Shown: one piece after another, positions 59,672 through 60,474 of the stretch
Layout: the number at the start of each line of letters is the position of its first letter
Numbering within the stretch: position 1 is the first letter of the stretch
From: Hymenobacter ginkgonis
Lineage (GTDB): Bacteria > Bacteroidota > Bacteroidia > Cytophagales > Hymenobacteraceae
Length of the DNA: 64,000 nucleotides
Direction: 5' to 3'
Assembly: GCF_009755225.1 (NCBI RefSeq)
Contig: NZ_WQKZ01000005.1
Coordinates: 62,001 to 126,000, forward strand
The notes under the pieces: generated by a model
The model's input: only the letters and a program-made list of their open reading frames with translations
Databases searched by the model: none
What the model was told of the DNA's origin: nothing
Made by a program: the position numbers and the translations under genes

Positions 59672-59703
59672 AAAAGGCGGCTTCCGCCAGGAAGCCGCCT
59701 TTT
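59672..59703 (-). terminator. Terminator of the tRNA-like gene
   Basis: AAAAGGCGGCTTCC / GGAAGCCGCCTTTT with a 4-base loop. It lies immediately downstream (minus strand) of the tRNA-like gene that ends at 59712. Confidence 0.85.
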
Positions 59704-59711
59704 GCTAAGGC

Positions 59712-59834
59712 TGTAGCGGAAGGACTTGAACCTCCACGAAGTGGTTAGATACAAGTGCCGAAGCACCTGCACTTTATCCCAGTGTCTTCACCCCCGAGAT
59801 AGGAGGGCGTGTCTGCCAGTTTCACCACACTACA
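59712..59834 (-). tRNA. Unusual class II tRNA-like gene, anticodon uncertain
   Basis: A 123-nt minus-strand RNA with clear tRNA parts. The acceptor stem is 7 bp (TGTAGTG / CGCTACA, one G-U). The D arm has a 3-bp stem GTG / CAC around AAACTGGCAGA. The T arm is GGAGG TTCAAGT CCTTC (59719-59735). The 3' end reads G then CCT, so CCA is not encoded. An anticodon-like arm CCCTC-CTATCTC-GGGGG (59791-59807) would give ATC, which is an unlikely anticodon, with T at position 37. A second hairpin CACT-GGGATAA-AGTG follows. The remaining variable region (55 nt in all) also holds CAGGTGC-TTCG-GCACTTG. Neither arm gives a standard Leu or Ser anticodon. It may be a decayed or re-purposed tRNA. It has its own promoter and terminator. 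Confidence 0.6.
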
Positions 59835-59871: not shown

Positions 59872-59904
59872 CAAAAGTACGTATAGTACCAAGTACTTAG
59901 CAAA
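59872..59904 (-). promoter_or_regulatory. Promoter of the tRNA-like gene
   Basis: On the minus strand TTTG (59904-59901), a 21-bp spacer, then TACTTTTG (59879-59872), a perfect TAnnTTTG. It ends 37 bp before the tRNA-like 5' end. A small hairpin AACGG-AAGCG-CCGTT lies in the leader. Confidence 0.6.
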
Positions 59905-59988: not shown

Positions 59989-60474
59989 ATGGCCCGTACT
60001 TACGAGCTCGACGACATCGACTACCGCATTCTGAATCTATTGATGCAGGATGCGAAGATGCCGTATACTGAAATTGCTCGCCAAGTGCACGTGTCGGGAG
60101 GCACCGTGCACGTGCGCATGAGCCGCCTGGAAGAATTGGGAATCGTGCGCCGGGCTACGCTCGACCTCGACCTACCCAAGCTCGGCTACGGTATGCAGGC
60201 TTTTGTGGGCGTCTATTTGCATAAAAACTCGCTGTACCTGAGTGTTATAGAAGCGCTTCAAGCTATTCCGGAAGTAACGGATGCCTACGCTACTACCGGC
60301 TCGTACGGCTTGTTTGTGCGGCTGGTGTGCCGCGACACGCAGCACATGCGCAACGTGCTGCACGACCAAATTATGTTTATCGAAGGAGTAGAGCGCACCG
60401 AAACTCTAATTTTGCTAGACCAAGCTTTCAGCCGCGCTGTGCAGCTTAGCAATCCCGACCAGGTTCAGCAGTAG
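59989..60474 (+). CDS. Lrp/AsnC-family transcriptional regulator
   Basis: A 161-residue regulator. The N-terminal helix-turn-helix (about residues 8-60) reads DDIDYRILNLLMQDAKMPYTEIARQVHVSGGTVHVRMSRLEELGIV. The C-terminal RAM ligand-binding domain (about 75-150) includes AFVGVYLHKNSLYLSVIEALQAIPEVTDAYATTGSYGLFVRLV. It would bind DNA as an oligomer and respond to an amino acid or other small molecule. A terminator follows the gene. It diverges from the tRNA-like gene. Confidence 0.95.
   Translation: MARTYELDDIDYRILNLLMQDAKMPYTEIARQVHVSGGTVHVRMSRLEELGIVRRATLDLDLPKLGYGMQAFVGVYLHKNSLYLSVIEALQAIPEVTDAYATTGSYGLFVRLVCRDTQHMRNVLHDQIMFIEGVERTETLILLDQAFSRAVQLSNPDQVQQ

Follow-up and report, generated by a model that had tools for sequence, protein, structure and literature searches.

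What is the tRNA-like RNA encoded on the minus strand at 59711-59834 of the window (the whole 64,000-nucleotide stretch of Hymenobacter ginkgonis DNA analysed here), and what might such an RNA do? Our sequence comparisons make it very probable that it is a member of an RNA family with a conserved tRNA-like structure and an anticodon loop of a non-decoding type, present in part of the Bacteroidota. A preliminary description of the locus had placed three identities side by side. A re-purposed tRNA, or a tRNA mimic serving some other purpose, agrees with what we found, namely no tRNA call, no Rfam family, a non-decoding-like loop and conservation, while a tRNA with an inserted block was half right in that a tRNA-Leu-like body carries a variable arm that has grown.

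Results

A tRNA-Leu-like body with a long variable arm

The RNA comprises 124 nt on the minus strand, as do all elements described in this section, from its 5′ end at 59834 to the discriminator G73 at 59711, and is directly followed by an encoded C74 (59710) that is a C in all 201 distinct long forms of the family (defined below). The 7-bp acceptor stem pairs UGUAGUG (59828-59834), of which U1, G2 and U3 are nearly invariant, with CGCUACA (59712-59718), as placed by the family alignments. In the window copy, UG stands between the 5′ strand of this stem and the D arm (59809-59825), which the alignments resolve as a Leu-type arm with a 3-bp stem, GUG/CAC, and an 11-nt loop, AAACUGGCAGA; the counterpart of this loop in the genome's own tRNA-Leu(GAG) is AAACTGGTAGA. 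The alignments likewise place the anticodon-like arm CCCUC-CUAUCUC-GGGGG at 59791-59807 (loop 59802-59796, with U33, A34, U35, C36, U37 and C38 in the window copy) and the T arm GGAGG-UUCAAGU-CCUUC at 59719-59735. Between these two arms, covariation identifies a helix V1 in which GAAG (59786-59789) pairs with CUUC (59738-59741). It is followed by an internal loop whose 5′ strand (59773-59785) ends in GGGAUAAA, with ANAAA in 185 of the 201 distinct long forms, and whose 3′ strand, CUAACCA (59742-59748), starts with CUAAC in 177 of them, and by a hairpin V2 (59749-59772) that has a UUCG loop in the window copy and is very variable in length among relatives. As read from the alignments, the topology is that of one anticodon-like arm and a long two-part variable arm on a tRNA-Leu-like body.

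This arrangement bears out the well-formed acceptor, D and T arms of the preliminary description, all of which are supported by covariation, and revises its reading of the region between them. Of the two anticodon-like hairpins proposed there, the arm with loop CUAUCUC stands, and the hairpin with loop GGGATAA is unconserved, GGGAUAAA being a strand of the internal loop. A proposed CCAC/GTGG hairpin is also unconserved; the partner of CTTC is instead a GAAG some 45 nt farther upstream. The UUCG hairpin exists and is longer in the window copy than had been described (10 bp, RNA positions 63-72/77-86).

The two sequence patterns said to frame the RNA are both present. Upstream, at 59872-59904, a promoter-like TTTG (59904-59901) is followed after 21 nt by TACTTTTG (59879-59872), a pair that we take to resemble the Bacteroidota promoter consensus; downstream, at 59672-59703, lies an intrinsic-terminator-like hairpin, AAAAGGCGGCUUCC..GGAAGCCGCCUUUU. 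Across the family, 113 of 203 RNA copies have TAnnTTTG in the 90 nt that precede them, versus 4.9% in mononucleotide shuffles. At several loci (e.g. L011, L012, L019, L020, L023, L177-L180 and L195) the RNA is followed downstream by repeated hairpins that share the loop ATCTGGGTGGGT and differ in their stems; they look like the paired terminators of one Hymenobacter clade, and similar loops occur in L181-L186.

Evidence for the fold comes from two alignments. In the first, the window copy and 24 copies from relatives were aligned over their whole length with our structure: 98.2% of the helix cells are paired, two-sided changes are found in 11 of 28 pairs, the covariation score is 0.329 as against 0.143 in shuffles, and 0 of 500 shuffles attain the observed value on any of five measures. 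Because the relatives align over the full length, the helices pair, changes are two-sided and no shuffle reaches the observed values, we conclude that the tRNA-like fold is not due to chance. The second alignment, comprising 95 distinct rows from named genomes fitted to the model and overlapping the first in some species, gave 95.9% pairing with 16 of 27 pairs changed on both sides. In relatives, the 4-bp helix V1 occurs in the compensatory variants GAAG/CTTC, GGAG/CTCC, GGTG/CACC and GGGG/CCCC. Helix covariation thus supports a cloverleaf with acceptor, D, anticodon and T arms, as in a decoding tRNA. Folding of the window copy as a single sequence did not recover this cloverleaf, the MFE of -42 kcal/mol belonging to another structure, with a z of -1.39 and 17 of 200 shuffles equally stable. 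A pairing of the loop UCUC with a variable-arm GGGA was rejected as not kept across relatives, as judged by eye.

Searches against known RNAs

A standard tRNA call, which it had been suggested to look for, was not obtained for the window copy: ARAGORN found no tRNA in the window, and in Rfam (release 15) no family reached gathering score for the window copy. Relaxing the limit to an E of 10 gave just six weak matches, of which five fall on the terminator hairpin. The tmRNA model RF00023 did not match the RNA at gathering score or with E up to 10, nor was a match to the Rfam tRNA-Sec model listed at either level, and both identities were rejected. The YrlA model RF02553 did not match with E up to 10, and no TROVE protein match was found in six RNA-bearing genomes (G005, G007, G008, G013, G014, G019); YrlA identity was rejected on these Rfam and TROVE results. 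When introns were allowed, ARAGORN called 13 of 30 140-nt segments from the window copy and relatives (12 as Thr(GGT) and one as Arg(CCG)), the window copy not among them. The called anticodon seems to derive from the variable arm and conflicts with the covarying structure, and an intron-bearing tRNA was rejected. Mimicry of an anti-Shine-Dalgarno sequence by CCUCCU was discarded, as L023, L105 and the short form described below do not keep the motif intact, and a mobile origin was dropped after one query each gave no plasmid match for a relative's RNA (L012) and no phage match for the window RNA. Titles and abstract starts in the open-licence PMC literature yielded nothing on this RNA, which does not in itself show that it is unpublished.

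Distribution in the Bacteroidota

A 214-nt DNA query matched 37 of 59 genomes, the own genome included, some matches covering only the terminator or the 5′ half. We then define the long form by a best E below 1e-16 with a covariance model built from the first alignment and run on 192 genomes of the order (Cytophagales); the long forms listed are at least 108 nt, and the window copy, which is part of the model, scores 121.6 bits in its own genome. Outside family f21, 148 of 173 genomes of the order carry the long form, including G049, in which a contig end truncates the copy, whereas it is present in 0 of 19 genomes of f21, a reduced-genome family in which 18 of these are below 2 Mb. Weaker matches, as a rule with a best E of 1e-9 to 1e-13, were ordinary tRNA-Leu of 82-87 nt where inspected, and those of G021 and G059, at 1e-15, were the short form. 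In a phylum sample of 198 genomes searched with stricter filters, the long form was found in 9 of 10 genomes of the order, in 13 of 39 from the rest of the class (G310 being judged from the alignment of copies) and in none of the 149 outside the class. At least 120 stretches matched a pattern scanned for in named genomes, and those listed were all from Bacteroidota by their titles as read; genera among the matches listed were Hymenobacter, Pontibacter, Algoriphagus, Cyclobacterium, Dyadobacter, Spirosoma, Chitinophaga, Niabella, Portibacter and Neolewinella. Eighty of these stretches were aligned. The three merged alignments hold 233 rows, and dropping rows below 100 nt and identical ones left the 201 distinct long forms, which have a total length of 108-203 nt (the longest contains a run of N) and a variable region of roughly 40-125 nt.

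Presence in relatives, which the preliminary description had proposed as a check, is thus wide, and decay is restricted. In seven Hymenobacter genomes (G011, G018, G021, G023, G024, G028, G059) we found a 76-nt form without variable arm that retains UGU..ACA, G73 and the loop CUAUCUC. At the regulator locus of six of these (L181-L186), a divergent remnant stands in place of the long RNA. The promoter-like TACATTTG is retained in L181-L186, and by eye most of the remnants contain a GTAG..CTAC-type helix. Copies in G004, G026 and G029 look decayed (31, 21 and 50 bits), the copy in G016 has diverged (66 bits) and that in G015 is missing through a deletion; one Hymenobacter sub-clade has thus lost the gene or carries it in decayed form, which does not hold for relatives generally. 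Other genomes carry tandem arrays of four to seven copies, namely G180 (seven, L138:6001-7031), G069 (L133), G151 (L137), G197 (L139) and G082 (L134). The decayed-looking copies and the deletion might be taken to mean that the RNA is a decaying tRNA relic, a reading that we regard as barely credible: the 201 distinct long forms show covariation, arrays reach seven tandem copies and the window copy scores 121.6 bits.

A loop that looks non-decoding

Several positions are almost fixed in the 201 distinct long forms: U1-A72 in 200, G2-C71 in 201, U3-A70 in 198 and G73 in 201, while the D-loop base after GG is C in 186, U in one and unparsed in 14. Loop positions were counted in the 198 forms with a 7-nt loop, leaving out two misaligned forms and one with a run of N. 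U35, C36 and C38 occur in all 198, and position 37 is a pyrimidine in all of them (U in 191, C in 7). Position 33 is variable (U 175, G 14, C 7, A 2), as is position 34 (G 144, C 27, A 22, U 5), and the 54 forms without G34 include the window copy, with A34, and all listed long forms of the same genus. As a control we took 41 tRNA calls of the own genome, 40 ordinary ones fetched from Rfam tRNA matches and an Arg(TCG) call that overlaps a YrlA-like RNA. A purine stands at 37 in all 41, U33 occurs in 39 and U is the first base in 2. The combination of U33 and purine 37 of a decoding tRNA is not found in the family, and the window copy has U33 with U37. From its invariant pyrimidine 37 and variable position 33, the RNA looks non-decoding.

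Could it nonetheless be a functional decoding tRNA of unusual form, reading as Asp AUC/GUC or Glu CUC? In favour of this are the ARAGORN call of tRNA-Asp(ATC) for the 76-nt short form and the commonest loop, CUGUCUC, which is one base apart from the loop of the host tRNA-Asp, CUGUCAC. We nevertheless think this very improbable, since position 37 is never a purine, position 33 is not U in 23 of 198, position 34 can be any base, the variable region is long and the host already has tRNA-Asp(GUC) and tRNA-Glu(UUC). The host set also holds five tRNA-Leu and is near complete; tRNA-Ile(GAU) and tRNA-Ala(UGC) were not seen in the own genome, the rRNA operons perhaps being missing from the assembly, and one of its three CAU tRNAs may read Ile. 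Two own-genome tRNA-Ala(CGC) genes (L056, L061) have C at 33 in a TCCGCAA loop, and a partial tRNA-model match of 32.3 bits (L066:327-383; C33:44626-44682 of the own genome) was uncalled by ARAGORN.

The fixed positions resemble those by which aspartate is handled. PMC9976931 gives G73, G34, U35, C36 and C38 as Asp determinants, describes U1-A72 as the pair by which GatCAB accepts Asp-tRNA(Asn), and describes G1-C72 as strictly conserved and crucial in bacterial tRNA-Asp. Among aspartate-accepting features, the family thus has G73 in 201 of 201 and U35, C36 and C38 in 198 of 198, lacks a general G34 (144 of 198) and lacks G1-C72, in place of which it has the U1-A72 pair of a GatCAB substrate.

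An AsnC-like regulator gene beside the RNA

On the plus strand at 59989-60474, divergent from the RNA, lies a gene for an AsnC/Lrp-family regulator (Pfam AsnC_trans_reg, HTH_AsnC-type), whose best NCBIfam model is AsnC at 139 bits, under the 227 cut-off. An AsnC/Lrp-type frame is divergent from the RNA in 107 of 171 loci, with overlapping frames in two more; these loci represent some genomes twice, and some end close upstream. The arrangement also occurs in other families of the order and class, the RNA lying 33-224 bp (median 134) from the regulator open frame. Among neighbor clusters the AsnC-like gene is by far the commonest (98 loci); the next, in 21 loci, is by our reading of the sequence a sufD-like gene farther up on the regulator's side, and genes downstream of the RNA vary by lineage. 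Four of the tandem arrays (L133, L134, L138, L139) are away from an AsnC-like gene and L137 adjoins one. Of 46 genomes searched for relatives of the regulator, 38 have one, including some that are RNA-free; none was found in the RNA-bearing G012 and G036. A gene that we read as isoaspartyl-peptidase/asparaginase-like stands in nine loci (e.g. L270) downstream on the opposite strand, at a median of 279 bp.

A regulator beside a small RNA gene brings to mind GcvA, which controls GcvB transcription. By analogy, the RNA could be a base-pairing regulatory RNA in which the tRNA fold gives stability, the fixed UCUC/UCCC loop is the mRNA seed and the AsnC-like protein controls transcription. Consistent with this are the invariance of UCYC at loop positions 35-38 (198 of 198) while 32-34 vary, the promoter-like element with its divergent regulator, and the loss tolerated in one sub-clade. 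We hold this to be unlikely: a four-base seed is short, and the fixed U1-A72, G2-C71, U3-A70, G73 and C74 are left unexplained.

The regulator gene with another partner

In two RNA-free genomes (G171, G195), the RNA's type of regulator is divergent from a gene for a 317-318-aa protein. With 313 and 320 bits, both proteins exceed the cut-off of 309 for the NCBIfam model NF005054, "asparagine synthetase A", and that of G195 matches an archaeal asparagine synthetase A, PDB 3p8t, with E 2.2e-57. G190 has the same pair of regulator and asparagine synthetase A, with the RNA located elsewhere, and G158 has a synthetase at 302 bits, just under the cut-off, whose gene does not adjoin the regulator within the stretch examined, the RNA again being elsewhere. 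Asparagine synthetase A therefore stands at the usual RNA place in three of the four genomes, of 192, that have this type of enzyme, and two of the four keep the RNA at another place. No synthetase of this type was found beside the regulator in the RNA-free G038, G051, G100 and G220, or in 12 genomes with the RNA away from the regulator.

We considered that the RNA replaces asparagine synthetases and rejected this: the predicted anti-correlation was not found, and co-occurrence is neutral. Outside f21, the RNA is present in 15 of 17 genomes without recognised asparagine synthetase versus 133 of 156 others (Fisher p 1.0), and in 12 of 15 AsnA carriers, two of them just under the cut-off, versus 136 of 158 others (p 0.46). 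AsnB-like genes are above the cut-off in 158 of 192 genomes, the own genome included, and paralogues of other function are suspected among them. GatB was found in 54 of 59 genomes, RNA-free ones among them. In a comparison of four sequences only, tRNA-Asn has G1-C72 in the own genome and in an RNA-bearing Saprospiraceae MAG (L301), and U1-A72 in two near-identical RNA-free members of the phylum (L124, L125); by the U1-A72 rule of GatCAB, the own tRNA-Asn would thus be no amidation substrate. An extra class-II synthetase as a dedicated charging enzyme was also discarded, since each of the 34 genomes counted has 3 or 4 PF00152 proteins. Of the extra ones, those of full length are the asparagine synthetase A of G171 and G195 and an AsnRS-like protein of 345 aa in G028 (L318:663-1700), which is without the N-terminal part of AsnRS and falls under the cut-off of every matching NCBIfam model.

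Discussion

The asparagine synthetase at the place of the RNA, the Asp determinants and the U1-A72 amidation element together suggest a role in the Asp/Asn economy. A link between the RNA and aspartate/asparagine metabolism, in which an AsnC-type regulator takes part, is a real possibility that we place somewhat below an even chance. Against it weigh the loss of G34, which is a strong Asp determinant, in 54 of 198 forms, the absence of the G1-C72 of bacterial tRNA-Asp and the neutral co-occurrence with asparagine synthetases. E. coli asnC and asnA form a divergent pair; the AsnC-type arrangement is alike here, with an RNA instead of an enzyme as partner.

It is tempting to speculate on a complete pathway, in which the RNA is a non-decoding Asp/Asn carrier. 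The RNA would be transcribed from its own promoter, cut by tRNA-processing enzymes and provided with CCA. AspRS would charge it with aspartate by way of the determinants kept (G73, U35, C36, C38 and G2-C71, with G34 in most members), and U1-A72 would allow amidation to Asn-RNA by GatCAB. The pyrimidine at 37, the variable position 33 and the oversized variable arm would keep the RNA off the ribosome, so that asparagine would not enter at Asp codons. Finally, asparagine status would be supplied or signalled through the product or through how far the RNA is charged, the AsnC-like protein controlling the RNA gene. Taken with all its steps of charging, amidation and control, this scheme is doubtful, and we offer it as a speculative reading of conserved positions.

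The asparagine reading differs from the tRNA-dependent asparagine synthesis described in PMC4206432 and PMC9976931, where AspRS and GatCAB act on the decoding tRNA-Asn (GUU). Common to both are U1-A72, G73 and U35, with GatB in most genomes examined; unlike tRNA-Asn, the RNA would be a separate candidate carrier with NUC and pyrimidine 37. A second precedent is tRNA-Other of Bacillus cereus, a pseudo-tRNA that, according to PMC3399842, is off polysomes, acts outside translation, is regulated, has a Trp anticodon and is reported from Bacilli. Both are tRNA-like, whereas the RNA described here has a loop that looks non-decoding and, unlike tRNA-Other as described there, a covarying long variable arm, an AsnC-like neighbor and fixed positions of the Asp/GatCAB type. 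With class II tRNA-Leu the RNA shares the 3-bp D stem, the D loop and the variable-arm junction, as well as a weak cross-match to the model; unlike tRNA-Leu, which has A73, it has G73, U1-A72, a non-Leu loop and a much longer variable arm.

A tRNA-like RNA conserved across a large part of the Bacteroidota, with neither an Rfam family at gathering score nor an ARAGORN call for its window copy, would amount to a major stable RNA that had been overlooked. Were it aminoacylated, it would separate the role of tRNA as an amino-acid carrier from decoding, and if it makes or reports asparagine, it would newly link RNA-dependent amino-acid synthesis to AsnC-type regulation. If the carrier reading is true, amino-acid synthesis on RNA would be uncoupled from translation.

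The variable arm raises a further alternative, a protein-binding tRNA mimic, that is, a Y-RNA-like scaffold or decoy recognised via the CUAAC/ANAAA internal loop. The strands of this loop are conserved while the hairpin beyond varies freely, and GGUUGACC is present in 45 of 106 forms of at least 140 nt. Against this, the short form of the seven Hymenobacter genomes is without the variable arm yet keeps the loop, the acceptor type and G73, and no TROVE link was seen, the six RNA-bearing genomes named above having no TROVE match and YrlA-like RNAs standing near TROVE genes on their own. We consider this alternative improbable. The GGUUGACC motif, mostly GGGUUGACCAC, lies inside the variable hairpin (e.g. 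L024, L026, L194).

Mimicry of tRNA is common to this RNA and to YrlA, a bacterial Y RNA (RF02553, model length 114). Unlike YrlA, the RNA has no RF02553 match, and separate YrlA-like RNAs are found near TROVE genes in the same genus. These YrlA-like RNAs (L067:3555-3679 in the own genome, L068, L069, L070 and L031) score 33-44 bits with RF02553, below the gathering score of 69, and come from Hymenobacter and a relative, where they lie near TROVE genes; for the one in the own genome, ARAGORN gives tRNA-Arg(TCG).
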